A stretch of 34,880 nt of DNA from a virus: positions 1 through 34,880 of IMG/VR virus record IMGVR_UViG_3300025093_000066. One strand, written 5' to 3'. Below are positions 1 to 19,655 of the stretch, one piece after another. Each line of letters opens with the position of its first letter. Position 1 is the stretch's first letter. Under the pieces are notes generated by a model that made no database searches, was not told the DNA's origin, and worked only from the letters and a program-made list of their open reading frames with translations. A program made the position numbers and the translations under genes.

Positions 1-28
1 TGCCGTTCCGCTCTCTTATACTGGCCAA

Positions 29-47
29 AGTGCGTCCTCAGTGCGTC
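29..47. repeat. Tandem AGTGCGTC repeats, third copy at 212-219
   Basis: AGTGCGTC starts at 29 and again at 40 (11-bp phase, about one helical turn). A third copy starts at 212. The copies at 40 and 212 share the longer AGTGCGTCAA. They straddle the tRNA-like core, so arm-type integrase binding sites are the natural reading. The third copy also sits in a TGCGTC-AAA-GACGCA dyad (214-228) just past the stop of the last late gene, so a role in RNA structure is possible. Confidence 0.5.
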
Positions 48-221
48 AAGCCACTGATACTTACTAAATCGGCCAGTTAAATCAAGCGTTTACAACATGG
101 CGGAGAGGGAGGGATTCTCTCCGTAAACCTTCTCGTTTTTAATAGAATCAACGAGTTAGTACTATTCTGTCGTGTAGTAAATACGCTTTATTTCTAGGTA
201 TTTCTACTTCGAGTGCGTCAA
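29..221. other. attP: Candidate attP: tRNA-Ser 3' end core with flanking arm-type repeats
   Basis: On the minus strand, 98-117 reads GAATCCCTCCCTCTCCGCCA. That is the form of a tRNA-Ser 3' end: second half of the T loop, T-stem 3' strand, acceptor 3' strand, discriminator G and CCA. The rest of a tRNA is missing upstream: there is no 5' T-stem, anticodon arm or 5' acceptor strand. It is therefore not a tRNA gene but fits the identity core of an attP for integration into a host tRNA-Ser. AGTGCGTC occurs at 29-36, 40-47 and 212-219 (two of these extend to AGTGCGTCAA). These lie on both sides of the core, as arm-type integrase sites do. No integrase gene is inside the window. The core match rests on knowledge of tRNA-Ser sequences; the attP role is inferred. 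Confidence 0.66.
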
Positions 222-229
222 AGACGCAG

Positions 230-472
230 TTACTTTTTCTTTACCCGAAGTGCGCCCCGGTTCTTTCTACGGCTCGTAATAGACAAGTTGCTACGCTTGT
301 TGTTCTTGGTGTTGCGGTCCTTATGGTGGACGTCTTTGCCGTCGCCTTTGGCAACCTTACCCGCTGCCGCCATCTTACGGCGAGCCGCATTTCTGCCTGC
401 TCGACGTTTCTTCTCCGCAGTCTTGCTATGAAACGTAGCGTATTCTTTTTTGTAGTCCCTTGGCTTAGCCAT
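230..472 (-). CDS. Small basic HNH-like protein (degenerate HNH motif)
   Basis: An 80-aa, Lys/Arg-rich protein. The central block VHHKDRNTKNNKRSNL (about residues 48-63) matches the first two thirds of an HNH nuclease motif: the His-His pair, then the Asn-rich turn and NL. The last catalytic or zinc-binding His is missing; Asn stands in that place in RRKNRG. It is either a stripped-down nuclease or a nucleic-acid-binding derivative. Similar short basic HNH-like proteins occur in many tailed phages. The start is supported by AAGGA seven bases upstream. It is the last gene of the late block, 9 bp after the preceding stop, and the attP-like region follows it. The similarity is clear but the activity is uncertain. 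Confidence 0.7.
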   Translation of the reverse strand: MAKPRDYKKEYATFHSKTAEKKRRAGRNAARRKMAAAGKVAKGDGKDVHHKDRNTKNNKRSNLSITSRRKNRGALRVKKK

Positions 473-481
473 GACTAATCC

Positions 482-808
482 TTAGTTCTCAGGTTTAGGA
501 TGCGCGTCTTTGACGCCTTTGATAAAGGTATAAAACTGTCCTGTTTTATCCAAAACGCCGTTGTCTATGTCGTGAAATAGCTTATCTAGCTGCTCTTCAA
601 GTGCCCCATACTCACGAAGCACATCATAGGTCGGCTCTACGTTTTCAATGCTAGTTACTACAAGCCAACCTTCATGTAAGACAGTCCGCACTGTGTCCCT
701 GGTCGAGGTCTTTTCGCCGACCGTTATGTATGGGTACCACCCATCACCGTCACCTTGCTCACTCTGCGGGCCAAGGACTATCTGATCGTTTTCCCATTTG
801 ACGTACAT
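482..808 (-). CDS. Small protein after the J-type fibre; possible fibre-assembly chaperone
   Basis: A 108-aa acidic protein that I cannot assign with certainty. The N-terminus (MYVKWENDQIVLGP, then WYPYI after an acidic loop) resembles the short N-terminal beta module of tail-fibre assembly proteins. The C-terminal half is helical and charged. The position immediately after a large fibre gene is typical for such chaperones. Its ATG shares a base with the upstream TGA (TGATG), and GGGAG lies seven bases before that ATG, so translation is probably coupled to the fibre gene. A GTG one codon earlier (811) is possible but sits too close to the ribosome site. Gene reality is well supported; function is inferred from position. 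Confidence 0.72.
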   Translation of the reverse strand: MYVKWENDQIVLGPQSEQGDGDGWYPYITVGEKTSTRDTVRTVLHEGWLVVTSIENVEPTYDVLREYGALEEQLDKLFHDIDNGVLDKTGQFYTFIKGVKDAHPKPEN

Positions 809-3507
809 CACCTAACTCCCATTATTACGCCAGCTAATTCGCCAAGGTAATCTAATGCAGTACCCGAGTCTGGCGAAGAACCACCAGACGCATACCTTTG
901 TATAGTTACCCTCACGTAAACAGAGGACGTTGTTGGGATAGCCATGCCACCCGAAATAGAAAAGGCAGCTGCAATATTCGTACGGGCTTTAAATCTTGAC
1001 TCACCAACCAATTGGTACGAGGTGCCAAACCCGGTACTTAACGAGTCTGAGGTAGTAAACGCAGAGCCTGTCCCTATAGTATAAAAAGCGGTAGTTGTAT
1101 TTGAGCTATAGAGAACGAGCGAAACGGTATGCGATTTACCCGTAGCCGTTAAAGTTGTTCCTACGCTTATGGTGTCAGTTAAGTCGCCGCTATACGTAAC
1201 AGACGGCGGTATGGTAACGAACCCTGTAGAACCTGGGCTAGCTGAAGTAGGAGTTCCTAAAGTTGTACCCGACTGGGTAGTTGTGTTCCGCATGTACATA
1301 CGTACCCGGTACACCCTGTCAGCACGGCAGTCATACCAGCCTGTAACAGAACAAAATACTTTATGCCCGTCTGTTAAGTGTGAAGTTGCGCCTAGCTCCG
1401 CCTCGTATAGCTGAGTTTCAGTGCCAGCAAACGAAGTGCTCTCGGTAGTCCGAAACGTAAGGAACTTGTTTACGTCGCCAGTTAGTCTATTAGCGTAAAC
1501 AGTTGTGCCGGACATAACTGTTGCACTGATACTACCGGCTGTAATCTGGTTAGCGTTAATTGCGTCTACCGCAAGAGCACCATCTTCGTTAGCGGTAAGC
1601 GTTACGTTATCGATATCGAGGCGAGAGGTGCTTAGTGTTCCAGCATTAACCTTACTTGCGTCTAAGTTTGCGATCTTCGCGTTATCAACCGCAGCGTTAC
1701 CAATCTTAGCGTTGGTAATGCTCGCGTCTTGTATCATCGCAGACCGCAAATACGTATTACCGCTGTCGATAATAAAAGGAACGATGTCAGTAGACGGTGA
1801 GTTCGTAAGATTGTTGCCCGTATCGGCTGGATCGATAACAGCAAACTTATCGGCTCTGACGATAAACGCGCTGGTTGGTGTTCCACTAACTGTGGTGTTC
1901 GCTAAACCAAAGCCTGAGACATGCCCGTTAGTATCGATTTTGACCGTGTACTGTCCGTGCAACCCGTTAATCGACGTCGCGTTAGTTTGAATCGATGTGC
2001 TGTTATTTCCGACCGTCGTGTTTAACGTAGTGATGTCACTTACTGCGGCAGTAATCTCATTACCCTGATTAGTTACCGTAGTTGTTAAGCTCGACAAGGC
2101 ACTAGCTGTTGCATTAACACCAGTCGAACTGTCGTTAACGGTGTTTTCAAGAGCAGTGATATCCGAGCTGTTTGCGGTCGTAGCGTTTTCAGTGTTTGTG
2201 ACGCGAGTTGTTAATGAACTTAAAGCCGTCGCTGTCGCCGTAACACCGGTCGAACTGTCGTTAACGGTGTTTTCAAGAGCGGTGATATCCGCGCTATTTG
2301 CAGTCGTGGCGTTTTCAGTAGCCGTAACCCGTGTGGTCAGCCCACTTACTGCTGTTGCAGTAGCATTAACACCCGTGGCTCCATCATTTACCGTATTTTC
2401 TAGCGACGTTATGTCTGAGCTATTTGTGGTCGTAGCGTTTTCAGTATTTGTAACCCGCGTGGTTAAGCCGCTTATCGCCGATGCGTTGGCACTAACACCC
2501 GTAGATGGATCGTTTACCGTTGAATCTAGATCAGCGATCTTCTGTGCAGCGGCTGATCCACTACTCGCAGACAGATAATTGATATCTGTAATATCAGACG
2601 TATTCCCTGCAACAGCAGCAGCAAGCGAAGTGTATGCCCCAACGTATGTCCAATAGCTGTTACTGCTCGTGGTGCCGCTAGGTTGGTTCGAACTTGATGC
2701 CGTGTGTGCTTGCAGGGCTTCATACAAATTTCCGTTAAACGTCACCAAGTCGTTTGTCGAGTAGCTAGTACCAGATGCCCAGGTAGCAACAGTAGACAGC
2801 GTGTTTATCTGACTTTGCAAATTAGCTATTGAAGCGGATGTATCAGCAGGCAGATTTCCGATTGGCGTCGCCAAAGACGTAGCCAACTCACTGCTGGTTA
2901 TAGCCCCTGCTAGTATGTCTAGCATTAGAGTTACGTTTTCCGCAGTCTCTGCGAGCGTGCCATTCGCGGAGTTATAGTTACCTGCAACGCCATTAACATT
3001 AACGTGGCGAATCCAGTAGTAGTAACTAGCGTCCTCTCCAACCGGGTCGACAAACGAGCGTCCTGACGAAACGCCAATAAGAATAGCGTCACCGATAATG
3101 TCAGAGTCGTATCGCCATATTTCTGTTAAAGAATGCCCACGGTAACTCGGCACGGTCCAGAACAAGCTTATGAGTTCGTACCCACCAGTCGCACTAAACC
3201 CAGTAGGTTGGGTAGGCCTTTCTATTGTTCTGTTGCCTCCGCTCCCGCTATTTGGGTTGCCGATGCCACCACTAGGATTGTTTGGATCGAACGGAACATC
3301 TTCAAGATCTACGGCGAGGCCCGTCTCAATAAGCTCACGCAAGGTAACCGCCCGATCGCGTACATCTCCTCGACGCCCGAGCCTTATCTCTAAAGCTTCA
3401 GATAACGCTTCAAGGTACCTACGAAAACCGGGGGACGCGTCCGCTGGTATCGCCGGTAGGCCGGGTACCTTTGTAGGTTTGACGGTGCGAACTGTCCTGC
3501 CGCTCAT
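808..3507 (-). CDS. J-type tail fibre / host-specificity protein with 42-aa repeats
   Basis: An 899-aa tail-tip protein likely to contact the host surface. Order of parts: a short N-terminal attachment region; a Gly/Asn/Ser linker (about 78-93); a fibronectin-III-like domain (about 95-185); an aromatic carbohydrate-binding-like module (about 240-290, TWASGTSYSTNDLVTFNGNL); at least four tandem 42-aa repeats of the form LENTVNDssTGV...SLTTRVTnTENATT (about 328-495); then a segment matching the C-terminal module of lambda J-like proteins (about 515-600, YTVKIDTNGHVSGFGL, ADKFAV, DASITNAKIGN); and a Ser/Thr/Gly-rich distal domain. It overlaps the upstream gene by ATGA. The repeats are 126 bp at DNA level and nearly identical over long runs, so they may expand or contract by recombination. 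Family placement is confident; the receptor is unknown. Confidence 0.85.
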   Translation of the reverse strand: MSGRTVRTVKPTKVPGLPAIPADASPGFRRYLEALSEALEIRLGRRGDVRDRAVTLRELIETGLAVDLEDVPFDPNNPSGGIGNPNSGSGGNRTIERPTQPTGFSATGGYELISLFWTVPSYRGHSLTEIWRYDSDIIGDAILIGVSSGRSFVDPVGEDASYYYWIRHVNVNGVAGNYNSANGTLAETAENVTLMLDILAGAITSSELATSLATPIGNLPADTSASIANLQSQINTLSTVATWASGTSYSTNDLVTFNGNLYEALQAHTASSSNQPSGTTSSNSYWTYVGAYTSLAAAVAGNTSDITDINYLSASSGSAAAQKIADLDSTVNDPSTGVSANASAISGLTTRVTNTENATTTNSSDITSLENTVNDGATGVNATATAVSGLTTRVTATENATTANSADITALENTVNDSSTGVTATATALSSLTTRVTNTENATTANSSDITALENTVNDSSTGVNATASALSSLTTTVTNQGNEITAAVSDITTLNTTVGNNSTSIQTNATSINGLHGQYTVKIDTNGHVSGFGLANTTVSGTPTSAFIVRADKFAVIDPADTGNNLTNSPSTDIVPFIIDSGNTYLRSAMIQDASITNAKIGNAAVDNAKIANLDASKVNAGTLSTSRLDIDNVTLTANEDGALAVDAINANQITAGSISATVMSGTTVYANRLTGDVNKFLTFRTTESTSFAGTETQLYEAELGATSHLTDGHKVFCSVTGWYDCRADRVYRVRMYMRNTTTQSGTTLGTPTSASPGSTGFVTIPPSVTYSGDLTDTISVGTTLTATGKSHTVSLVLYSSNTTTAFYTIGTGSAFTTSDSLSTGFGTSYQLVGESRFKARTNIAAAFSISGGMAIPTTSSVYVRVTIQRYASGGSSPDSGTALDYLGELAGVIMGVR
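2025..2535. repeat. 126-bp tandem coding repeat in the fibre gene
   Basis: The DNA repeats with a 126-bp period. For example GTCGAACTGTCGTTAACGG starts at 2123 and again at 2249, followed in both by a nearly identical tail. Each unit encodes 42 residues of a Thr/Asn-rich segment, probably a trimeric coiled coil or beta-helical stalk. At least four units are recognisable in protein; the central two are closest at DNA level. Confidence 0.85.
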
Positions 3508-5210
3508 GTAGCCTGAATCTCATCCATGCTTTGAGCGAGACAAACTTCGTCAATTTCGACAGCGCCAGAGACTTGCACCTCCCACACCTGGGCGATTGCT
3601 GATGGAAGACGCATAATCGGCTCACGCAAAGTGCCTGTAGAAGCACCGCTGGGAGTTGTAACAGTCTGCGTATAAACACCAGAAGACTCTGACAAGCTGT
3701 ACTCAGCGATTAATGTGCCGTCAGCCCAGACGCTTACTGTGATCGGGTAAGCTTGAGCGTGAACAGAAACCCACCCCATACTAATAGGGGCTGGCGCAAC
3801 GAACTGTTTTGACTTCCACGTAAGCGTACGATTCGTTGTGCCGCCTCGGTACTTCATAATGGCATTACCGATAATGACGTAAAGCTCGCCATCTTTCGGG
3901 TTCATGTAGCCGCCGCGTACTTCCCCGGTGTACGAAATATTAGACAGCGTGGCTGCTCCGCCTCGCGGATCGTAGACAAACCCGCCGCCGCTCCAAAAAG
4001 CGACGTACGTGTTTTCGTGCCTAAACGCCCGGTAGGTCGTCGGGTTAAAATCGTCGTTCCATTGCTTGGTGGAAACGAGCCCTTCTGTTACGACTCGACC
4101 TTCGCTGCCACTAACAGCGCACAGCCCGTCCGGCCCTGCGTATAAAAGGTACTCGCCCATATCGACGACGCTGTGCTTGTTGACGCAGGCTTGCGCCAGA
4201 TCAACACGAATCGCGGTCATCGCACTAGGGTCCACGCCCGTTACGAAGTAAGGCGTGCCGTCTGTTAAGCAGATAACGCCATTTGAAATCGCGCCGATGG
4301 CGACAATGTCTTCTTCAAGCGTTATACGATATGAGATAGGCCACGCATGAGGTAGAAAAGGCTCGCTAAGACAGAAACGTTTACCAGTAAAACCAGCGAA
4401 AACGCCGTTAGCAACAGCAATAAGGCCAGCAAGTGGCCCATCAGGGTATGTCGATGAGTCATCATCCGGCGGACCAATCCATGTTTCACTAGGAAGCACC
4501 TCTCCCAAGCCAGTAGAGGCCGTCGTGTCAGTGTAAGATGTAGTCGTAAACGCCACTTCTGCTAGAAACTGGAAGGTAGTGTTAGTGCTGCCGGTGTTTG
4601 ATCTGTAAATCCGCTTTAAAGCCCCTGAGCCGAAGTTGTAGTTGCCCGAGGGATGGTCGCTAGACGACAGCGGGACAGTTACCGACTCTGTATCAGTACG
4701 CTCCAGCACGTTACTTGCCGGGCTTGGCGGTCCTTCCTCACCATACGCAGTCACGAATGTATAAACGTACGCTACGTCGTCCGGTGTCTGCGTATCGTCA
4801 GCGGTACCTGATTTTGAAATAGTCGGAGCGTTTGCCGGTGCAGGCACGCCTAGTCGATAAGAAGCCGCTGGGTATCCAGAAGAGCCGCTGACAATCGTAG
4901 AGACAGTGCCCATGCGAGGGTAGTCTTCGCCGGTCCAGTACAGTCGATCAATTGCGTCGCCGGGTATTGGGCCTGAGACTGCTTTAACGTAGTCATCGGC
5001 CCATTCGAGCCAATTGGTGTCGCGGTAGTAAAAAATAGAACGACGAGTTGTGTTCTGTAGGGTATGGGTGCTTTGATTGTCGGTAGTCGGCGTCAAGCGA
5101 CCCGACTCGAAGTCGATGTTTTCTGCTACTTGAGCAAACTCATCTGATACCAGTCGCGGAGAAACTCCAGGGGCAAGGCCGCTAAAAGTTGTACGCTTAA
5201 AATAAGCCAT
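3504..5210 (-). CDS. Large tail/virion structural protein (unassigned podovirus-type)
   Basis: A 568-aa, beta-rich protein with no transmembrane segment or enzymatic motif that I recognise. It starts MAYFKRTTFSGLAPGVSPRL, an N-terminus I associate with phage structural proteins that sit between the adaptor region and the fibres. About residues 125-230 (DVAYVYTFVTAYGEEGPPSPAS, shortened here) look like a fibronectin-type segment with its usual AYGEEGPPS turn. The remainder (FVTGVDPSAM, YLLYAGPDGLCAVSG) resembles a beta-propeller or nozzle-like repeat architecture. It is translated just before the J-type fibre gene (ATGA overlap) and has GAGG upstream. A tail nozzle or fibre-anchoring role is an inference. 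Confidence 0.78.
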   Translation of the reverse strand: MAYFKRTTFSGLAPGVSPRLVSDEFAQVAENIDFESGRLTPTTDNQSTHTLQNTTRRSIFYYRDTNWLEWADDYVKAVSGPIPGDAIDRLYWTGEDYPRMGTVSTIVSGSSGYPAASYRLGVPAPANAPTISKSGTADDTQTPDDVAYVYTFVTAYGEEGPPSPASNVLERTDTESVTVPLSSSDHPSGNYNFGSGALKRIYRSNTGSTNTTFQFLAEVAFTTTSYTDTTASTGLGEVLPSETWIGPPDDDSSTYPDGPLAGLIAVANGVFAGFTGKRFCLSEPFLPHAWPISYRITLEEDIVAIGAISNGVICLTDGTPYFVTGVDPSAMTAIRVDLAQACVNKHSVVDMGEYLLYAGPDGLCAVSGSEGRVVTEGLVSTKQWNDDFNPTTYRAFRHENTYVAFWSGGGFVYDPRGGAATLSNISYTGEVRGGYMNPKDGELYVIIGNAIMKYRGGTTNRTLTWKSKQFVAPAPISMGWVSVHAQAYPITVSVWADGTLIAEYSLSESSGVYTQTVTTPSGASTGTLREPIMRLPSAIAQVWEVQVSGAVEIDEVCLAQSMDEIQAT

Positions 5211-5219
5211 ATGGCCTCA

Positions 5220-5438
5220 CTATTTCATAAGCAAGGTAACTAATAGCCCTGCCATACCGCCTATAAGCATTACGCCGAGGCTGAACATGCGCTTACTTAC
5301 AAGAGCTAAGCTTTCGTCGATCTTATCGAGACGATTAAAAATCGTCTTGGAGCGCTCTTCGCACATAGCTTCGTGGGTCGCAATTCTGTTGATGGCTTCC
5401 CAGTAGCGGTCTTGCGACAAGCCGCTCCTATCAGCCAT
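5220..5438 (-). CDS. Small C-terminally membrane-anchored protein
   Basis: A 72-aa protein with a charged helical N-terminal half (YWEAINRIATHEAMCEERSK, then IFNRLDKIDESLALVSKRM) and one C-terminal membrane helix (LGVMLIGGMAGLLVTLLMK). I chose the ATG at 5438, which overlaps the upstream gene by 8 bp, over the start 16 codons earlier inside the neighbour. The topology (cytoplasmic coiled coil plus C-tail anchor) fits a lysis accessory, holin-like or membrane-associated virion factor, but nothing in the sequence decides. The true holin candidate is elsewhere (13.4-13.8 kb). It sits in a run of three small membrane or coiled-coil genes. Confidence 0.65.
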   Translation of the reverse strand: MADRSGLSQDRYWEAINRIATHEAMCEERSKTIFNRLDKIDESLALVSKRMFSLGVMLIGGMAGLLVTLLMK

Positions 5439-5652
5439 CGGTCTCGTTCGATCTTTCTGACTCTTCTGATTTGACACGGCTCGCAATCATGTTCGCGAGG
5501 TTTGCCACCGCAAGCTCGTGGATAACGGCTTGACGTCTTGCCTCTTGCATCATTTCTTGTGCTTTGGCGTGCAGTGACAACAATTCCTTCACCTCGTTAG
5601 ATAGATCGTCTATCTCATATCCCTGATCGTCGATCGTGAGTTGGTCGCCCAT
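5431..5652 (-). CDS. DUF6447-like small phage protein
   Basis: A 73-aa protein, MGDQLTIDDQGYEIDDLS..., followed by one long amphipathic helix (NEVKELLSLHAKAQEMMQEA). The N-terminal 'L-I-D-G/Q-x-x-Y-x-I-D-D-L-S' beta hairpin followed by a helix matches a short phage family I know as DUF6447, of unknown function. The ATG at 5652 is preferred because AAAGGA lies seven bases upstream; a longer reading to 5757 would run through the 17-bp palindrome and into the neighbouring gene. This is the first gene after the palindrome at 5691-5707, so it may begin a transcription unit. Confidence 0.68.
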   Translation of the reverse strand: MGDQLTIDDQGYEIDDLSNEVKELLSLHAKAQEMMQEARRQAVIHELAVANLANMIASRVKSEESERSNETDG

Positions 5653-5690
5653 GCTAAGTCCTTTAGGAGATACTAACGTCCCTGATATTT

Positions 5691-5707
5691 TATTAGTTGT
5701 GCTAATT
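5691..5707. promoter_or_regulatory. 17-bp palindrome, copy e
   Basis: The plus strand reads TATTAGT-TGT-GCTAATT; in gene direction AATTAGC-ACA-ACTAATA. It lies in the 65-bp gap before the DUF6447-like gene, 38 bases upstream of its ATG, and is followed in gene direction by AAAAT, so TAAAAT could serve as a -10 element. It belongs to the five-copy family WATTAGYnnnRCTAATW. Confidence 0.6.
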
Positions 5708-5717
5708 TTTGCAACAT

Positions 5718-6248
5718 CTAGTTGCCCAGCGGGTTGGTGGCGTCTATCGCCATCCACAGGTCATCCATGTCCCGCTCAAAGTTCTTAAGCCGTTGATCTA
5801 ACGTCTTCAGGGACTCTAGTTTTGCCTGTACCTTTAGCTCTGACTCGCTCGACGTTTTCTCTACTGCCGCGATCCGATCACGTATGTCGAGCAGTTCTTT
5901 TTGAGCGTCCATGATCTGTACAAGATTAGCGCCTAATTCCGACAACTTACCTTGCAAATTCTCGACGTCTGCCGCGTTCATGGCCTGCTTCATACCTGCC
6001 AGCTTCTTATCCATCTCCTGTAGGCGAACGGTGTTGGTTTCACGCAGGTCGTCAAAGCGTGCAGCAAGCGCTTCTGCTTGGGATGTGGCCGCAACAACGG
6101 CTTCGCTCTGCTCATTAAGTTGTGCAAAAAACTGAGACGCCGCCCAGATCCCACCGCCGATGGTCGAGCCGAACGTTAGGACGATGGCAATCCAGACGCC
6201 CTTTATGCTCGTACCGCCGACATTTACTTCAATATCTTCAAGGGCCAT
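5718..6248 (-). CDS. Membrane-anchored coiled-coil protein
   Basis: A 176-aa protein. A short hydrophilic start (MALEDIEVNVGGTSIKG) is followed by one membrane helix (WIAIVLTFGSTIGGGIWAAS, about 19-38) and then about 125 residues of heptad-like coiled coil rich in Glu, Lys, Gln and Ala. It ends MDDLWMAIDATNPLGN. I chose the ATG at 6248, inside the last bases of the upstream gene, because the 41 residues that a longer reading would add are an out-of-frame copy of the neighbour. Proteins beginning this way are familiar in marine phages but have no established role. The topology (N-terminal TM, long periplasmic or cytoplasmic coil) also resembles inner-membrane spanins; no partner outer-membrane lipoprotein lies next to it, so I do not call it one. 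Confidence 0.7.
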   Translation of the reverse strand: MALEDIEVNVGGTSIKGVWIAIVLTFGSTIGGGIWAASQFFAQLNEQSEAVVAATSQAEALAARFDDLRETNTVRLQEMDKKLAGMKQAMNAADVENLQGKLSELGANLVQIMDAQKELLDIRDRIAAVEKTSSESELKVQAKLESLKTLDQRLKNFERDMDDLWMAIDATNPLGN

Positions 6249-7080
6249 ACATGCATGCCTCTTTCTCTGTTTGGTCTTCGATAAACCAGCAGCCGCCTTC
6301 GGGGCTAGTGGTAAAAAACAAGCTCTTCGAGCCTTCGTCAATAACGTCAACGTCTGCCTTAAAGTAGCCATCCATATTGAGCATCACGGCTTGGCTTTGG
6401 CCTTCCCATTCAACGGTCAGCACCCCGGTAGAAGCGTCGAAGTACGACGTCTGCGATTCTTGATAGGTCACGCGCATGTCGTACGCAGCGTCGTCCGCTG
6501 AATCAAGCAACGTCGCGTCGTTGGCAACCGCCATATATGCGGCGGCAGTCTGTGCGGCTGCTTCTACCGCTTGTAGCGCGGTGTTGTAGTCTTCTACCTC
6601 AGCGTCATCTAGTAGTACGTCGTTGGCGTCTACATATTCTTGTAGCGCCATCGCTTCGCGACTATCCGGCGCTTGTTGGGCGTCCTGGGCCATTTCATTT
6701 ACGGTTGTAACCGCTATGACGGCTGTAGCAGCATCGACATACGCATCGATCGTGTCACTAAGGGTGTCCATGGCCTGCTGGCTCTGTTCCTCGAAGTACT
6801 GGTCGGCGTTAGGATCGAACGTATAGGTCGCGCTTCTAAAATCTAGAACCGCTTGGTTGTATGCATCCTGTTTAAACTTCTCAATAAGCCCAGGATCGAC
6901 TATGCCTGTGTTGGCGATGCCGCCAAGGCGTGCATAGTTAGCCATGCCGCCGATGGCTTGGATGCCGTATTTAAATGTGTCGCGGATCGCCTGTGAGCTA
7001 TTGACTAGGTTGTCCAGCTCGTTCGCGTTTAGTTGAGCGGAAGCGATCAGAGATAGACTCATCAGTGTCTTGCGCAGCAT
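6238..7080 (-). CDS. Exported protein, Ala/Asp-rich, unknown function
   Basis: A 280-aa protein with a Sec-type signal peptide (MLRKTLMSLSLIASAQLNAN, cleavage likely after ASA or ANA). The mature part is acidic and Ala-rich with long helices (about 80-200) and ends with a small Cys-containing segment (GGCWFIEDQTEKEACMYGP) that could form a disulfide. I recognise no family. Its start lies inside the 3' end of the preceding exported gene (83-bp overlap in another frame) and is supported by GGGGGT eight bases upstream. Two adjacent exported proteins suggest a periplasmic job such as superinfection exclusion, lysis timing or envelope modification; this is speculation. Confidence 0.75.
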   Translation of the reverse strand: MLRKTLMSLSLIASAQLNANELDNLVNSSQAIRDTFKYGIQAIGGMANYARLGGIANTGIVDPGLIEKFKQDAYNQAVLDFRSATYTFDPNADQYFEEQSQQAMDTLSDTIDAYVDAATAVIAVTTVNEMAQDAQQAPDSREAMALQEYVDANDVLLDDAEVEDYNTALQAVEAAAQTAAAYMAVANDATLLDSADDAAYDMRVTYQESQTSYFDASTGVLTVEWEGQSQAVMLNMDGYFKADVDVIDEGSKSLFFTTSPEGGCWFIEDQTEKEACMYGP

Positions 7081-7645
7081 TGTCGTTACCCCCAGCTAAC
7101 AGCTGATTATAAAATTCTTTATCATCTTCAAAGTCGGGTATCCACATTTTGGGATTCGACTTGATCTCTAGCAGGGCGCTCTTGCCCACCATCAACCGTC
7201 CTCCTTTAACGATTGGACATGGCGTAGCAGACATAAACATTGCTCTCCACACCTGGGCGTTCTGGCACATCAGACTGACGCTAGCCACTTTCATACCCAT
7301 GTTCGATAACGTAATCGCGTTAAGCCTTCGATTACATTCTGGGTCTTGCAGGTATTTACCAGATGACAAGCCAAAACCGACCATCTGAAATCCACCTGTT
7401 ACCGACCTTAAACACGACTGCTGGCCTGAGCTAATCAGGCTTGGACTAATCGCGCTATTGGCTGGCAAAGATCGACCGCTGCCAGCCCCGTTGTAGTTGT
7501 TCTCGACATTCCCATTATTGGAGTTGCTCGTATTGAGGTCTCCTTCAATGTCTACTCGCGGGTCTACTCCCGGTTCTATGTCTATTCGCTCCTGCGCCAA
7601 AGCAAGGCTTGGAGTTAGCAGCAGTAAAGCTAATAGTCGTTTCAC
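6998..7645 (-). CDS. Exported protein with Asn/Gly-rich N-terminal segment
   Basis: A 215-aa protein starting with GTG and a clear signal peptide (MKRLLALLLLTPSLALA, then QERIDIEPG). Residues about 35-60 are low-complexity Asn/Ser/Gly (TSNSNNGNVENNYNGAGSG). Four Cys follow in the mature part (SCLRS, PECNRR, LMCQNA, TPCPIV), which could form two disulfides in the periplasm. It has no lipobox Cys. The last 27 codons overlap the signal-peptide region of the next gene in a different frame. The C-terminus is hydrophilic and basic (STKRERAGQPSQ). Family and role unknown; exported status is well supported. Confidence 0.78.
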   Translation of the reverse strand: MKRLLALLLLTPSLALAQERIDIEPGVDPRVDIEGDLNTSNSNNGNVENNYNGAGSGRSLPANSAISPSLISSGQQSCLRSVTGGFQMVGFGLSSGKYLQDPECNRRLNAITLSNMGMKVASVSLMCQNAQVWRAMFMSATPCPIVKGGRLMVGKSALLEIKSNPKMWIPDFEDDKEFYNQLLAGGNDNAAQDTDESISDRFRSTKRERAGQPSQ

Positions 7646-7651
7646 CTTTAC

Positions 7652-7963
7652 CTACCAAGGAACACCATCGCTTTTTGTCGGAGTTTTTTGTTCTGCAATA
7701 TCTGCAGCGAGCGCTGTTTCAAGAGCGTCTTTATCTATACCCTGATGCGCATAGACCCAGTCAAGAACCGTAGCTTCTGTTAAATCATCATAGGGTATAA
7801 AGTCTTCAGCATCGGGATCGGGGGTGAAACTACAGGTTCCATACCTGTAGGAAATATACTCAACGTCACCTACTGTTTCCGATTCTGCAGCATGCCAATG
7901 GGCTGTAGTAACACCACCGTCTGGTAAGCTGCGTTCCATTGTTTGTATAGTCCAAACTGCCAT
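7652..7963 (-). CDS. Small conserved phage protein, DUF7936-like
   Basis: A 103-aa acidic protein. Pattern: MAVWTIQTMER, then a beta strand with TTAHWHAAESE, FTPDPDAEDFIPYDDLTE, VLDWVYAHQGIDKDALETAL and a C-terminal TPTKSDGVPW. The layout 'W..., x-F-x-P-Y-x-x-L-T-E, W-V-x-x...I-x-x-x-L, P...G-x-PW' matches a family common next to tail-fibre genes in marine phages (I believe DUF7936), function unknown. AAGGA precedes the ATG by about nine bases. It lies directly after the fibre-like 299-aa gene, so a virion or fibre-assembly role is plausible. Confidence 0.7.
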   Translation of the reverse strand: MAVWTIQTMERSLPDGGVTTAHWHAAESETVGDVEYISYRYGTCSFTPDPDAEDFIPYDDLTEATVLDWVYAHQGIDKDALETALAADIAEQKTPTKSDGVPW

Positions 7964-7975
7964 TTCATTCCATCC

Positions 7976-8875
7976 TTATGTGTTTTTATACACGCCATAC
8001 ATATCTGATAAAGAAATCTCTCCGCTCGCTGGCACCGATGAGTTCTCTGTAATGTCGGGGACTATTCCCCCACCTCGGTAAAGATCGCCCAAGGCTAGCG
8101 AGCCAGAGTCTGCAAAAAATGTTTGGACGCCTCCGAGGCTAATCTCACCGGAACTTACGGAGTATTGAGTAGTTGTCGCTGCCGCACTTGTTGGAGCAGT
8201 ATCGCCAGCAGAGGCAAAGCCTATCTTCTTAATGTAGTACTCGGCTGTGTTGCCTCGTCCGCCAAACCCCATATAACCGGTGGTGTTGTTGTAGGCGTTT
8301 ATCTCGCTCAGAGTACCTTCATAGCTGCGAGTCCAAGAAGCCGGTTCTGACTCATCCGCCTGCCACAGCTTGTTGTATACATTTACGTTTGACCCGCTAT
8401 CTACTGCCCGTAATCGCATCCATAGATAGTCCAAATGGTCCACGCCAGAAACCTCAGGGTTATTCCAAGTAGTGGAACCGTTGGCATTACTAGTAAGGTT
8501 TCTGTCTTTCTTTATATTTGCCCCTGACGATCCTGATGTCTCCGGTATGGCAAGGTTATAAGCTATAGAACGATTAGCGGAGGAGTCCCACCTTCCAGCG
8601 ATAGCGTTATGCGAAAAAGTGGTGGTTTTTGTGTTGTATGAACTATGTACAGGTTTAATTAAGCAAGCGATTTCAAAGTCGCCAACACTAGAGCCTGCGT
8701 CGTCAAACGAAAAAAAGCACGGTTTAAATGAGGTGTCAGAAGTGCCGTGAAGCACGTGCAAAGTAGTCTGACCATCGTCCGTGACAAGTTCAACAGTGTG
8801 GGCCGTGGAGCGGCGAGACGTAAAGTAGTCTGTCCAGTCTGATACGTCGTCGAAATCTACGAACCACGTAGCCAT
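7976..8875 (-). CDS. Tail appendage protein with lectin-like domain and ISLSD-type tail
   Basis: A 299-aa beta-rich protein. The body (about 1-215) begins FVDFDDVSDWTDYFT and contains segments typical of concanavalin/LamG-like jelly rolls (FEIACLIKP, YLWMRLRAVDSGSNVNVYNK, YYIKKIGFAS), which suggests sugar binding. The C-terminus carries two copies of a short motif, SGEISLGG and SGEISLSDMYG. I know the motif 'P-x-S-G-x-ISL-x-D' from the ends of many phage tail fibre proteins. It shares TAATG with the end of the S74 fibre gene, so the two may be translated together and form one appendage. No enzyme residues are seen. Confidence 0.75.
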   Translation of the reverse strand: MATWFVDFDDVSDWTDYFTSRRSTAHTVELVTDDGQTTLHVLHGTSDTSFKPCFFSFDDAGSSVGDFEIACLIKPVHSSYNTKTTTFSHNAIAGRWDSSANRSIAYNLAIPETSGSSGANIKKDRNLTSNANGSTTWNNPEVSGVDHLDYLWMRLRAVDSGSNVNVYNKLWQADESEPASWTRSYEGTLSEINAYNNTTGYMGFGGRGNTAEYYIKKIGFASAGDTAPTSAAATTTQYSVSSGEISLGGVQTFFADSGSLALGDLYRGGGIVPDITENSSVPASGEISLSDMYGVYKNT

Positions 8876-13796: not shown

Positions 13797-16700
13797 CTAT
13801 AGCACTATGCTGTAGCCGGGGATGATTCGCTTAGGCAAGATAGAAAGACCGTCTCCGTCCAGAGCACCCAGCGCTATGTCGTCGACAAGCAAGCCAAAGG
13901 TCGGTCCGAGAAGTGGCGCTAGGCCTGAGCCGCCCCATTCGGCGCTCTTAGACATCATGCCCAAAATCGACAAGGGACCGGCGTAACCGGCTCTATCAAA
14001 CGTTTCGCCGAGATATTCGCCCCAGTCCATGCGGTCTGAGCGGAAGTAACGCGCCGCAGGTTTATCGACGCCCGGTAGGGCTTGCGAAAGCAGATACTTG
14101 GATAACTCTCGTAGCTCAAGAGACATCATTGCGAGTGGCATGAACGCAGCACCCGCAAGCGCCATGGACATACCCGCGCCAGTCAGCTTGTCCATCGTCG
14201 TGTCGCCTTCGGCCAATCGGACTCTAACCTCACGCATAAGACCGCCGACAATGACTTTAGAGAACGAGTACAAGTATGACTTCAACGACCAAATAAGGGC
14301 GAAGCGAGGGTCGTTAGCCCACGCGGGGCGTTCAGCGGCATTAGGCCGTAGCATCGAACTCTCAACAAAACGTACTAGCGCTTTTTTAACTGCAGCGCCG
14401 TCTTCGCCTTCGAACGTGTAGCCTCTGTCACCCTGTGCTTCCTCCCACCGTAGTACCTGCTCTGCCGTGACGCCGAGATCGGACAAGTAGCGGGTCGCTC
14501 GTGGGTTCTTGGCTTCATTCTTGGAGTGCGTTAGTAAAAACTGCACGCCCATATTCGACGCGAATTCCCGTGTAAAACGCGTAAACGCGTTCAGTCCGAT
14601 GCCCTTGAAGAACTTGTCAGACCACTGGCGGACTCTGGGGTCGAGGAACTCGTCGTCTGCTTCAGTAAGTCCCAAGTTTGCCATGGTGGTGCTTACGGTA
14701 ACGCCGAGGTCTCTGGCAAGCTGTACTGCCTCTTCCCGATTCTGAACCGTGTTGACTATCTGCTTCATAGCCTCAGTGACGCCGCCGAACTCCTTGGAGT
14801 TGATGACCGCGCCGCCGAACTCGGGGATAGAACCAATGGTAGCCAGCGGCAGCAGCGTCACCCAGTTGAACAGCTGCATCCAGCTATTGAACTTCTGCAG
14901 CTTCGGGTTGAGCGGATTCTTGGTGTAGCCCAGATACCGCTCAATGATTCGTACTGCTTCCGCTCTCTGCTCGGGTTCCAGCTTGTCGAGCATCAGGCCA
15001 AGTTTGTCTGTGCCGTCAGGGTTGGTTGTCGCCCGCTTAAACTCGACGCGAATAACAACCTGACGAATATATTTGAGCAACGCCAGTTCTGGCGGAAGCA
15101 GGAACTGAGCCAACTCCTGGGGTGGTACGCCGTCTGTAAGCGTTCTGGCCTCAGTAAGGACGGACTGCGGATTCGTCGCATCAAAATCAATGTCGACTGC
15201 ATCGGTAATGATGTCTTGATACCTTGAAACAAGGCCGTCTACCGTCTCCCGTATCTGATCTGCCTGAAGTTTAGGCTTGTACTTTTTGATGACCTCGATG
15301 AAGGCATCAGGATCTTCGTAAATCTTTGGTAGATCTAATGCCACGGGGAAGTAGTCATCACGACGTCCGATACCAGCGCCCGGTACCTTGGAGATATAGT
15401 TGTCGTAAAGACGCTCTAGGAACCGGCGAATCTTCACCGCTGTTTCGTCAGTAAGTTCGCCAGTCGGCGTATCGGTTGCTGCCTCAGAGAACCCGGCCTG
15501 GACCTCTTCGGTATCCCAGTTGTCACCGAGGAGGTCTTCCAGATCGTTTAGAATTTTATTACGCGCATTAGTTTTCGCGTTTAAAAACCCCACCTCGCCA
15601 TCTTTGTTTTCAGATGAGCGACGATAGAACATGTTGGCGATGTTAGGGTTAATGCTCCTTAGGATATTGTCCTCTGGCAAAAGAACCGCCATCAACAGGC
15701 CAATCCCCTTATTCTTCAATAAACGAGAGACAGCGCCCAGGACGCGCTTCGCGGCGGCTTGGGCTTTAGGATCACCCTTAACTGAGTCTTCCATCGCTCG
15801 GATAAGCAGCCTCTGCTGATACGTAGCATCTCTGCCAGACATACGGTTGGTTGCGGCGTGCAAGTTGCGACGGTTTGTGGCGACAAGGTCGTTGAGGTAC
15901 TCGGTCATGTGGAAGCTGCGTGCTTCTTTACCGAACCGTCGCTTCATCTCTGCCGACAGCGCCTGATACATCCTTACTATTCGCTGAGCGATTCTTTTGA
16001 AGATACTTTCCGTAGCGTCCTTCGCCGTACGTTTCTCATCAAGGTAAATGCTCTGCGCCCAGCTGGCCACCTGATCAGCGAACCACTCCTCGAAACCGGT
16101 CGGCCCCTGCCATGCACTCGGCGCGTCCTCCCTGTTGCGGGCGTTCGACCACGATCTAAATAAGCGGAAGTACTGGCCCGGTTTATTCAGCGTGTCACTG
16201 AGTTCTTCTTGGAACAGCGCGTGTCCTAATTCGTGGGAAGCGATAAGAGAGGTCTGGAGTAGGTTGTCATTAATATCTACGACGATCACGTGAGCGTCGT
16301 TAAAGCCGAGGTACCGCCCCAGTGCGGCGGGGCTTCCCTGCACAGCAGCTATCTGTTCTTTGACTGCGTTGGCTATGCGAGGGTCTTTGAACGCCGAGTC
16401 TGGCAGAGTGAAACCTTGCGTTGATCCGACAACAACCACGGGCTTCCTAAGACGGAGCGCCTTTATTGCAGTGTCTATTACCTTTTGGGTTAGGGTGTCT
16501 ACGTCCCCGATATAGTCGGCGGTAGTTCTACGAGTGGTAGGTCCAGAATGCGAGCTGCCGGATCTATTGATCTCAAACCGGGGGTTAGACTCTATGTTGA
16601 GTCTGCTCAGGGGTACCGTGTCATCTCGACCGTCCTCGCTAAATATCTGCTCTGGATCAGCGAAAGGGTCAGACAGCATTTTTGACGGTTCTGCGTCTTC

Positions 16701-19655
16701 GTCAAAACCGAGAATCTCTGTTTCAAAGTATGGACCCTTGTCGGCGACGTTGGGGTTGCCAGCAGTGAAAGCGTCTTTCGCTTGAGCGGCCTCCTCGAAC
16801 GAGTCGTATGTAAAAACATACTCCTTTTGAAATGCGCCTTTTTCACCTTCGGCTTTCCCGTCAAACTGCTTGACGCGCATTCGCACTTGGCCTTGCTTCT
16901 CTGGACGCTTGCCCGAAGGAAACAGCTGCGACAGGGTGACCGGTTTGCCGTTTTGGAAACCAGCCACAATACGCCCGACATCTACCTCATCTGATATCTG
17001 TCCACGCGATAACTGTCCGCTGCGGAGTAAGCCGCCTAGCGGCTGGCCGAACACCTCTACCTGATTACCTTCCAACGAAAGCTCGCCGATAACTTCAAGT
17101 AGCCCCCTGCGGGTGGACTCCATTGGACTTGCGCCCTGGAAAAAGTTTGGATCTCTGCGTCGTACAAGCTCGCGGCCTGCTGAAACGAGATCAACCAGAT
17201 TGACCTTCGTGGACTTACCGCCCTCGGTAACCAGCTTGACGGGTGAGAGACGCGCTTGAACGCTTCGCTTAGCTTTCGATATCGCGCCCAGGAGAAGCTT
17301 GCGCTCTGCAGCTGGGTCTAATGAGTCGCGAGAAAGCCCCTCACGTTTGAGGACGTAGCCGTCAAAAGCCTCCTCAATAACTACTCGTTGGGTCGGGAAC
17401 TCTCGTTGGGTGTCTACTGCCTTTTTCAGCAAAGACTCAGTTACGCCTCCCCAGAAAGGATCGTTCCAGTCTTGCTCACCAAAAGTCTCGTCGTAAGCGT
17501 CGCGAGCTTCCTGAGTGTTTTCGAAGACTTCGTTGGGGTCGCGCTTACGCTTGCCCATGGAGACTATCTCGGTCTCTTCGGAAGTCTCTCCAAAGGCATA
17601 GCCGCGCTCATCTAGCAGGCTGGCTGCGTCCTCGTTGAAGGTGATGCTTTCAGACCCGTAGCCCATGCGATCGGTCTCTGAAGCGACATCCATGTTCCGA
17701 ACGGTGGGACCGGCGTCTTTGAGACGCCACGTGCCTAAGTCGTTCGTCTCAACCAGTCCGCGATCAGCAAGATCCTTCAAGTAGCCTTGGGTCTTGTTGA
17801 AACCGGTGCGAAGGTGACGTTGTAGCTGAGAAACAGTAAACGCCTCGTTCTGAAGGGCGAACTGAGCCGCTTTGCCTAAGTCACCTGTTAACTCTATAGC
17901 CGGTGGGGTCTCGGCTTCAGGCTCCACCTCAGTATCGAACAGCCCCATCTGCTCTGTAGGCGACGGCTCAGAAGCAGGACGGACACTGGGGGCTTTCTCA
18001 GCATCGACGCGTTGCTTCCGCTGGCGGAGCGCTTCGGTCAGGGAAATAGTGCGGAAACTGCCGCCCTCTGGGGCGAGATCCTGCGCGGCTCGCTCTGCGG
18101 CAGCTAGCCCAGCTTCGTTCGTTAGCTCTTCAGATACAGGGTTGCCGTCTCGGTCTAGAGCCTGTACGACCAGACTAGCATCGGGTCGTTTCCCTCCACT
18201 GTAGCCGAGCGCTTTGCCCAGGACAGCGTCTGATGCCTGATTATTGATGACCTCTTCTACGGTGCTCTTCTTCCCGATAATAAGTCCGCGACCGGGAATG
18301 TTGGCGGCGAACGCTCGTTTCTCGCCATTCGGCGTACCAAGGCTAACCTGCGTAGCGATGTTGTCTTCCGGTAAAACGCTACGCCACTCGGGCTTAAGGT
18401 CTCCCGCAACCCACACAGCCTGTTTGGCGCTAGTGCGATCAAACAGCGCTTGGATCTGGGCGTTTATTGTCCTTGTTGATTCTTCGGTAGTGTTGCCGGT
18501 ATCAAGGTCACCAAACTCCTCGCGGTCGGCCTGCTGATTAACCTGTATCCTCTTCCCATCGGAGATCATCTTGGCTGCTTTATCTAAGACCCTAGATGAC
18601 GCTCTGCCAACGCCGCCTACCGCGCCACCAGCCGCGCCGATACCTGTACCAGCGACGCTGCCCTGGAACGTGCCTTGCGCGATACGTAGGAATGCTTGCT
18701 CAGCAGTGAAGTTCGGGTCCATCGATGCGCGGTTTGCAACGCTGATCGCTTCTTGGCCACCTTCGGCAAGACCTTCAACGACTGCGCCTTTGGCCAGCCC
18801 TTTACCGATCTCTTTTGTCAATAGTGCTAAAGGACCGTCTGTACTTGCCCCGGCTCTTGATTTGGCTACCTTCGCAAACGACTTCAGTAACCCGGCCTCT
18901 ACGGCGACGTCCAGGGCAGCTTGAGGAGCCGCGACCAGCATTGAACGGAACGCTAGCTCTGCATCTGGTTCTCTGCCAGCCTCTAAGCCCTCCGAGAAGT
19001 TCTCACCGGTGAGGGGGACGTAGGACGATCCCAACGCGCCTGCATACGCGCCTCTCTTAAACGTCATGCCACGGAATGCTCGGTACGCATTGTTCGCCAG
19101 CATTTTTTCATCTGGGGTGGCGACATCTTTAATTGTGTTCTCGACTGCTTCTTTGAGAACGCGTTTCGCCGTAATTTGAGACGTAGCCGATATAGCGCCT
19201 CGCCCTGCGAGTCCGACTAGCGCAGCCGTGCCACCGCTAGCAAGTGCAGCGACAATGGTAGTAGCAAGCGTGGGAGCGGCCTGTCCGAGAGCCAAGCCAG
19301 ACTGCGTAACAAAGCCTTCCAGAGTAGGCTCCTCCATGAACTCACCAAACTCTTGCATGCCCTCCAGGGCGGCGGCAGCTTCAAGTTCATAGTCAGTCGC
19401 TCGGGAGATATTGTCGGCAACGCCTTCGTCGTCCCCAATTAACGCATTGCCAGCAGCAGCGGCCATCGTGCCCATGGACAGCATGCCCTGTGCGCCCGAC
19501 TCAGCGCCACGCTCAACTATTTCTTGGAACGACGTTGGGGGCGCACGGCGCGATACAGCGACTTCGATATCGTCCCCGACATTCTCGTAGGTGTCGGGGT
19601 TGATGATACTTAAGAAGGCTTGATCGGCTAGGCCCGCATATGGATCGCTAGCCAC
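13797..19655 (-). CDS. Giant internal virion (ejection) protein with zincin and FtsK-gamma-like domains
   Basis: A 1952-aa protein, the largest in the window. The N-terminal ~350 residues hold several Ala/Gly-rich hydrophobic segments (for example ATTIVAALASGGTAALVGLA), as in channel-forming ejection proteins. Residues about 590-645 (AAQFALQNEAF, SQLQRHLRTGFNKTQGYL, LADRGLVE) resemble the FtsK gamma winged helix. Residues 1141-1145 are HELGH, with EEWFAD at 1189-1194, the spacing and shape of a gluzincin-type metallopeptidase (His1141, Glu1142, His1145, and Glu1189 or Glu1190). The C-terminal third again has membrane-like stretches (MSMALAGAAFMPLAMMSLEL). It starts with GTG overlapping the previous stop by 8 bp. 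Likely role: entering the cell wall and membrane with the DNA; the domain calls are by eye. Confidence 0.82.
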   Translation of the reverse strand: MASDPYAGLADQAFLSIINPDTYENVGDDIEVAVSRRAPPTSFQEIVERGAESGAQGMLSMGTMAAAAGNALIGDDEGVADNISRATDYELEAAAALEGMQEFGEFMEEPTLEGFVTQSGLALGQAAPTLATTIVAALASGGTAALVGLAGRGAISATSQITAKRVLKEAVENTIKDVATPDEKMLANNAYRAFRGMTFKRGAYAGALGSSYVPLTGENFSEGLEAGREPDAELAFRSMLVAAPQAALDVAVEAGLLKSFAKVAKSRAGASTDGPLALLTKEIGKGLAKGAVVEGLAEGGQEAISVANRASMDPNFTAEQAFLRIAQGTFQGSVAGTGIGAAGGAVGGVGRASSRVLDKAAKMISDGKRIQVNQQADREEFGDLDTGNTTEESTRTINAQIQALFDRTSAKQAVWVAGDLKPEWRSVLPEDNIATQVSLGTPNGEKRAFAANIPGRGLIIGKKSTVEEVINNQASDAVLGKALGYSGGKRPDASLVVQALDRDGNPVSEELTNEAGLAAAERAAQDLAPEGGSFRTISLTEALRQRKQRVDAEKAPSVRPASEPSPTEQMGLFDTEVEPEAETPPAIELTGDLGKAAQFALQNEAFTVSQLQRHLRTGFNKTQGYLKDLADRGLVETNDLGTWRLKDAGPTVRNMDVASETDRMGYGSESITFNEDAASLLDERGYAFGETSEETEIVSMGKRKRDPNEVFENTQEARDAYDETFGEQDWNDPFWGGVTESLLKKAVDTQREFPTQRVVIEEAFDGYVLKREGLSRDSLDPAAERKLLLGAISKAKRSVQARLSPVKLVTEGGKSTKVNLVDLVSAGRELVRRRDPNFFQGASPMESTRRGLLEVIGELSLEGNQVEVFGQPLGGLLRSGQLSRGQISDEVDVGRIVAGFQNGKPVTLSQLFPSGKRPEKQGQVRMRVKQFDGKAEGEKGAFQKEYVFTYDSFEEAAQAKDAFTAGNPNVADKGPYFETEILGFDEDAEPSKMLSDPFADPEQIFSEDGRDDTVPLSRLNIESNPRFEINRSGSSHSGPTTRRTTADYIGDVDTLTQKVIDTAIKALRLRKPVVVVGSTQGFTLPDSAFKDPRIANAVKEQIAAVQGSPAALGRYLGFNDAHVIVVDINDNLLQTSLIASHELGHALFQEELSDTLNKPGQYFRLFRSWSNARNREDAPSAWQGPTGFEEWFADQVASWAQSIYLDEKRTAKDATESIFKRIAQRIVRMYQALSAEMKRRFGKEARSFHMTEYLNDLVATNRRNLHAATNRMSGRDATYQQRLLIRAMEDSVKGDPKAQAAAKRVLGAVSRLLKNKGIGLLMAVLLPEDNILRSINPNIANMFYRRSSENKDGEVGFLNAKTNARNKILNDLEDLLGDNWDTEEVQAGFSEAATDTPTGELTDETAVKIRRFLERLYDNYISKVPGAGIGRRDDYFPVALDLPKIYEDPDAFIEVIKKYKPKLQADQIRETVDGLVSRYQDIITDAVDIDFDATNPQSVLTEARTLTDGVPPQELAQFLLPPELALLKYIRQVVIRVEFKRATTNPDGTDKLGLMLDKLEPEQRAEAVRIIERYLGYTKNPLNPKLQKFNSWMQLFNWVTLLPLATIGSIPEFGGAVINSKEFGGVTEAMKQIVNTVQNREEAVQLARDLGVTVSTTMANLGLTEADDEFLDPRVRQWSDKFFKGIGLNAFTRFTREFASNMGVQFLLTHSKNEAKNPRATRYLSDLGVTAEQVLRWEEAQGDRGYTFEGEDGAAVKKALVRFVESSMLRPNAAERPAWANDPRFALIWSLKSYLYSFSKVIVGGLMREVRVRLAEGDTTMDKLTGAGMSMALAGAAFMPLAMMSLELRELSKYLLSQALPGVDKPAARYFRSDRMDWGEYLGETFDRAGYAGPLSILGMMSKSAEWGGSGLAPLLGPTFGLLVDDIALGALDGDGLSILPKRIIPGYSIVL

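Follow-up and report, generated by a model that had tools for sequence, protein, structure and literature searches.

Described attachment sites and the locus in the window

The attachment site (attP) of phage lambda is used by a tyrosine integrase and carries arm sites on both sides of the core together with IHF sites. It does not target a tRNA, and the number and order of its arms differ from those of the attP described here. In the Cluster K1 mycobacteriophages CrimD, Anaya, Adephagia and Angelica, according to the accessible part of the report (PMC3203893), the integrase gene adjoins the core, and two pairs of 11-bp arm repeats, one inverted with respect to the other, flank it, both as in our locus. 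The core identity lies in a T-arm region in either case, but it is that of tmRNA in Cluster K1, where the hosts are also different and covariation was seen on four phages. At the intS/attL region of KplE1 a tRNA gene, argW, is followed by the integrase gene in the same direction, and this order makes the integrase gene self-repressed (PMC2951348, as far as its available text describes). The layout is like that of our locus, and the KplE1 arm sites overlap the integrase control region as the repeats here abut the start codon; autoregulation was measured there and is inferred here.

By its internal virion protein the phage resembles the Bcep22-like podoviruses BcepIL02, BcepMigl, DC1 and JC1 and Vibrio phage 1.205.O, whose internal virion proteins are homologous over most of their length. 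The comparison with the Bcep22-like group (Lessievirus) concerns this protein only, at about 31–34% and with no DNA similarity, and membership of the genus is not claimed. The integrases of BcepIL02, BcepMigl and DC1 match that of a near relative of our phage (L206) at 32–34%. JC1 integrates at rimO and not at a tRNA, as stated in the accessible portion of PMC9144972.

The DNA analysed here, referred to as the window, is the 34,880-base viral record IMGVR_UViG_3300025093_000066 (class linear, not a complete genome); large related contigs reach up to 54–61 kb. Its main genes, for terminase, portal, major head protein, internal virion protein and tail fibre, lie on the minus strand, and the virion block includes a 1952-aa ORF at 13797–19655. 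Beyond the tail fibre gene, the left end holds a 109-aa ORF and a small HNH_3-type ORF, followed by a stretch without listed ORFs (29–229). A blastn search of window 1–8000 against 50,697 phage records gave no match, and hence no named phage relative by DNA. The features of the left end are as follows.

1–28, minus strand: 5′ end of a tyrosine integrase gene, TTG start at 28–26, (M)ASIRERNG, cut by the contig end
30–47, minus strand: two tandem arm-type sites GACGCAC, 11 bp apart, directly upstream of the integrase start; tandem common to relatives
80–92, plus strand: predicted IHF-consensus site AATCAAGCGTTTA, between arms and core, one of two matches in the window
98–117, minus strand: attP identity block, tRNA-Ser 3′ end GAATCCCTCCCTCTCCGCCA including CCA, a unique 20-mer that ends complete tRNA-Ser genes elsewhere
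101–123, no strand: putative core-type integrase sites CGGAGA (101–106) and TCTCCG (118–123), a perfect 6-bp inverted repeat around 11 bp
146–158, plus strand: predicted IHF-consensus site AATCAACGAGTTA, distal side of the core, the other of the two matches in the window
214–228, no strand: distal inverted pair of arm-type sites TGCGTC-AAA-GACGCA, with a counterpart in relatives
230–472, minus strand: small HNH_3-type ORF, 80 aa, reaching to the distal arm pair and bounding the att module

Positions 1–228 very probably hold, in phage DNA that is not integrated, the first nine codons of a lambda-type tyrosine integrase and the attP on which this enzyme acts. An attP of such an integrase had been proposed for 29–221 in a sequence-only reading, from a tRNA-Ser 3′ end and arm-like repeats. 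That reading is right, and it is strengthened by the integrase start, which had not been seen. The site is of the classic kind; the arm alphabet across the family is the part that deserves specialist attention.

The tRNA-Ser end, the arm sites and the integrase start

The 20-mer at 98–117 reads TGGCGGAGAGGGAGGGATTC on the plus strand and GAATCCCTCCCTCTCCGCCA on the minus strand, and comprises the 3′ half of the T-arm, the acceptor and the CCA of tRNA-Ser, which we take to be nucleotides 57–76 in the usual numbering. It was the sole match in the window at up to 3 mismatches, and none of 100 shuffles contained one. ARAGORN found no tRNA in the window, which rules out a phage-encoded tRNA and, with the unique match, bears out the earlier description of a tRNA-Ser end with CCA and without the rest of the tRNA. 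Among 120 stretches of viral contigs with the 20-mer, 80 showed it at the end of a complete tRNA-Ser gene (anticodons GCT in 31, TGA in 28, CGA in 16 and GGA in 5); the other 40 were not complete tRNAs. The search of bacterial genomes that had been suggested found it in 84 of 185 sampled genomes from a gammaproteobacterial class (to which a Marinobacterium genome belongs) and in 17 of 190 from an alphaproteobacterial class (to which a Rhodobacteraceae genome belongs). Since it is present in both classes, the host cannot be named from the 20-mer.

The inverted repeat that overlaps this block, CGGAGA-N11-TCTCCG, is identical in the near att relatives L204, L205, L206 and L209 and absent from L202, and matches at at least 5 of 6 bases occur in 11 of 33 cores across the family. 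Its halves are putative core-type integrase sites. The IHF sites, both missed in the sequence-only reading, are predicted from matches to the IHF consensus. Only two matches occur in 34.9 kb against 0.74 expected, and 18 of 100 shuffles reach two anywhere; the telling point is the place of the predicted sites, one on either side of the core. Matches were found in 26 of 50 related attP regions, 36 in total against 1.0 expected and mostly at fixed offsets from the core.

Copies of AGTGCGTC lie at 29–36, 40–47 and 212–219, so that the three copies reported around the core, two of them in 11-bp phase, were recovered; a fourth lies far off at 19982. The copy at 212 forms one half of the inverted pair at 214–228, which had gone unnoticed. 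Predicted arm-type sites are thus present on both sides of the core. Over the window as a whole the number of copies has no significance (4 where 1.87 are expected; 11 of 100 shuffles reach 4), whereas three copies inside 191 bp compare with about 0.01 expected by arithmetic from that count. The left pair, GACGCAC-TGAG-GACGCAC in minus-strand orientation (47–30), is the sole match in the window even at 2 mismatches, a loose match that was reached in 34 of 100 shuffles. An exact 6-mer occurring both as an 11-bp tandem beside the integrase start and inverted distally was seen in none of 20,000 dinucleotide shuffles. A terminator-like pattern at 214–228 was rejected as an intrinsic terminator, as it matches on the plus strand and the neighbouring gene reads the opposite way. 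No sigma-70-type promoter match was found in window 1–480.

A search for an integrase gene to the left of the window had been suggested; the gene already starts inside it. The minus-strand frame at 28–1 (TTG-GCC-AGT-ATA-AGA-GAG-CGG-AAC-GGC) is open and runs off the contig. Its motif, the N-terminus of a tyrosine-integrase family, and its distances to the arms and the core match those of the relatives, whose integrases begin MASIRNRNG, MAYIRERNG, MATVRKRGK and similar; the nearest of them also begin with TTG. Both an integrase start and bacterial copies of the 20-mer, the absence of which had been named as telling against the attP reading, are therefore present. The integrase of the window is known from nine codons only, and a search of viral contigs with a degenerate 27-base pattern found none that continues it past base 1. 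In the AlphaFold2 model of relative L269 (mean pLDDT 82, 86–89 in the first 40 residues), strands span 2–7, 10–15 and 23–27 and a helix spans 30–46. This order of strands and then a helix is the arm-binding-domain pattern given for this enzyme class in the available text of PMC8138268. The best sequence matches among solved structures were to lambda Int, with which the fold of the model aligns from residue 1. As residues 1–54 are barely tested by the rows of the structure search, the fold call for the N-terminal domain rests on the model strands and on the 1z1b and 1z1g rows, the only ones that start at residue 1.

In the proposed mechanism, the three-stranded N-terminal sheet of the integrase would bind the arm repeats, its other domains would contact the CGGAGA/TCTCCG half-sites, and IHF would bend the DNA. 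Strand exchange would take place inside the 20-bp block common to the phage and the host tRNA-Ser. Since the phage would bring nucleotides 57–76 with the CCA, integration would leave the host with an intact tRNA gene, immediately followed by the integrase gene in the same orientation. The arm repeats at 30–47 end one base from the start codon, and because they abut it the integrase probably also represses its own gene, by analogy with IntS of KplE1.

The same plan in related podoviruses

With the internal virion protein (3504–5210) as query, 116 relatives were found in IMG/VR, of which 80 were kept. A PF00589 integrase was present in 35 of 50 records (29 of the 44 to which the virion protein had led and all 6 found through the 20-mer), and in related podoviruses the same att site lies directly 5′ of its gene. 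Upstream of most relatives' integrases the plan recurs: integrase start, 11-bp arm tandem, tRNA-Ser end, IHF site and inverted arm pair. Dozens of podovirus attPs share it. An exact 6-mer common to the tandem and the distal inverted pair was found at 37 of 99 loci (the window and 98 unique integrase loci, a good many of which are distant or lack a certain start), against 256 of 9,702 mismatched pairings of different phages. A fixed pattern for the tRNA-Ser end was found in 39 of 50 attP regions; in 9 of these the tRNA piece points the opposite way to the integrase. None of 43 scanned loci held a full tRNA, as expected of an attP. The virion block of the window can thus be assigned to an integration-competent phage lineage with tRNA-Ser as its target class, and the combination of tandem, tRNA end, IHF site and inverted pair provides a search pattern for attP in metagenomic phages.

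Variations of the plan were also observed. The tRNA-Ser end upstream of the integrase gene is reversed in L213, L216, L218, L219, L270, L278 and L280–L283, so that the rebuilt tRNA would sit at the other end of the prophage. The far-side arm repeats are direct and not inverted in L214, L223, L293, L294, L296 and L310; L214 and L223 have a different core containing CTGATTCCGACCCGAGCCTCCA, perhaps from another tRNA. Upstream of its integrase, Pseudomonas phage PAJU2 (L455) has an 11-bp tandem, CTGGGGGAATC, as well as a 3′ end resembling that of tRNA-Ser, a plan similar to that of the window with a different arm motif. Some bacterial genomes have a family integrase shortly downstream of a complete tRNA (Met, Arg, Val or Pro). 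One such bacterial locus is attL-like: in a Mariprofundus MAG (L407) a family integrase follows closely on two complete tRNA-Met genes, and GTCACA repeats occur there in pairs.

Arm motifs, integrase residue 14 and alternative readings

Arm motifs vary between phages and agree within each (GACGCA, GACGGA, GTCACA, GGCACA, GACACC, GGCACC, GGGACA, GGTACA and others). The motif tracks integrase residue 14 in strand 2: E or D goes with CG, Q with CACA, and R or K with G at the third base. In a curated table of 65 integrases, CG accompanied an acid in 20 of 20 cases (2 of 45 without the acid), CACA accompanied Q in 23 of 23 (1 of 42 without) and third-base G accompanied R or K in 10 of 10 (1 of 55 without). 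With a tree built from the remainder of the protein, the acid/CG association gave 7 independent pairs (a mean of 6.4 concordant and none opposed, median p 0.03) and Q/CACA also 7 (a mean of 6.7 concordant and none opposed, median p 0.016); R/K-G gave only 2. The rule was found by inspection and the motif register of the table was read by eye. The motifs entered for L202 and L205 have copies that differ by a base. Rows without an exact repeat were left out, as were 17 with an 11-bp repeat of unclear register (L299, L309, L319, L320, L321, L328, L330, L332, L368, L380, L381, L383, L395, L416, L420, L421 and L452). An uncurated count, in which the rows are related and the Fisher value is descriptive only, gave CG in 20 of 20 acid rows and 5 of 60 others; it used 80 of 159 rows, and 79 were set aside because of a missing repeat, a gap or a short upstream region.

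The exceptions are L280 (G), L301 (T), L209, L299 and L380, with CG and no acid, and the RAQ rows L319, L320 and L368, which depart from Q/CACA. In a pre-registered held-out test of the acid part (60 loci, 59 unique, 33 usable), the rule failed in the sole acid row (L470), where a chance-looking repeat had no CG; 29 of 32 non-acid rows lacked CG. Two later K rows (L465 and L520), outside the plan set beforehand, agree with R/K-G, and two extra scans for fresh rows gave almost nothing new. Integrases L223 and L214 are 95% identical, yet the former has YVE with GACGCA and the latter RAV with GGTACA. The att backbone of the window aligns best with L205, L202 and L204, which have arms of the GGGACA type, but the window itself carries GACGCAC; by this alignment the window is apparently a natural arm swap.

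A tentative proposal, falling somewhat short of probable, is that a simple code, mainly of strand-2 residues 12 and 14, reads the arm sites, and that phages swap the arm alphabet (the domain and all four sites) but retain their catalytic domain and tRNA-Ser core, the window being one such swap. Residues 12 and 14 would face the same side of the strand. If the code is true, an acid is predicted at residue 14 of the missing integrase of the window, and private arm alphabets could stop cross-reaction of prophages at one shared tRNA. In this family many integrase N-domains come naturally paired with their arm motifs, which makes a DNA-reading rule for arm binding directly testable. A search of open-access literature (most subscription journals lie outside this scope) returned a single precedent for such covariation, PMC3203893, whose accessible text connects N-terminal residues 17 and 19 of the integrase with a difference in arm sites between four phages of Cluster K; the idea is thus not wholly new.

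These results bear on what the repeats are. A chance match or a decayed tRNA remnant unrelated to integration would fit the 40 of 120 viral stretches in which the 20-mer belongs to no complete tRNA, so that the 20-mer alone proves little; the conservation of the layout beside integrase genes in the relatives and the 20,000 shuffles without a single instance make this reading negligible. The 11-bp tandem could instead be bound by an excisionase (RDF) or a repressor, with the tRNA end still an attP, and RDF sites are indeed described as direct repeats one helical turn apart in the available part of PMC7498355. Such a role is improbable, since the motif changes in step with the strand-2 residue of the integrase on the rest-of-protein tree (acid/CG and Q/CACA) and the inverted copies beyond the core suit arm sites.

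For the integrase attP, the further question is how the phage uses it. A working site through which the phage integrates only transiently, with no stable lysogenic cycle, is possible but rather doubtful. Integration need not mean stable lysogeny: as far as the accessible texts go, T7-like cyanophages with an integrase and an att site integrate and form no stable lysogens (PMC8776855), and earlier Bcep22-like phages were obligately lytic or unstable as lysogens (PMC9144972). Three large relatives (G018, G028 and G032) have neither an integrase nor an HTH_3 gene, which also fits. Against this, 12 of 15 large relatives have a repressor-type HTH_3 gene, and these comprise all 11 that have an integrase (G040 has HTH_3 only), and the Bcep22-like JC1 forms stable lysogens according to the same portion of PMC9144972. 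The suggestion of a temperate phage is well supported for the family (integrase in 29 of 44, HTH_3 in 12 of 15 large relatives) and may hold for the phage of the window itself, whose genome is incomplete in this record and for which a search of bacterial genomes with the virion protein gave no close lysogen, only 12 distant or fragmentary hits. Twelve plasmid records also had the virion protein, all under 60% identity, and none of the bacterial or plasmid hits was used as attL/attR. From its genes the family looks temperate, with some members apparently lytic.

G018, G028 and G032, possibly lytic members of the family, are contigs of L045, L059 and L066, 50–57 kb long and without a PF00589, resolvase or HTH_3 match; a serine recombinase in place of the tyrosine integrase was sought in 6 integrase-less relatives and found in none. 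The nearest bacterial hit of the internal virion protein (57% identity) lies on a 9.2-kb MAG contig (L243), which is binned as Acidimicrobiaceae and is possibly a misbinned viral contig.
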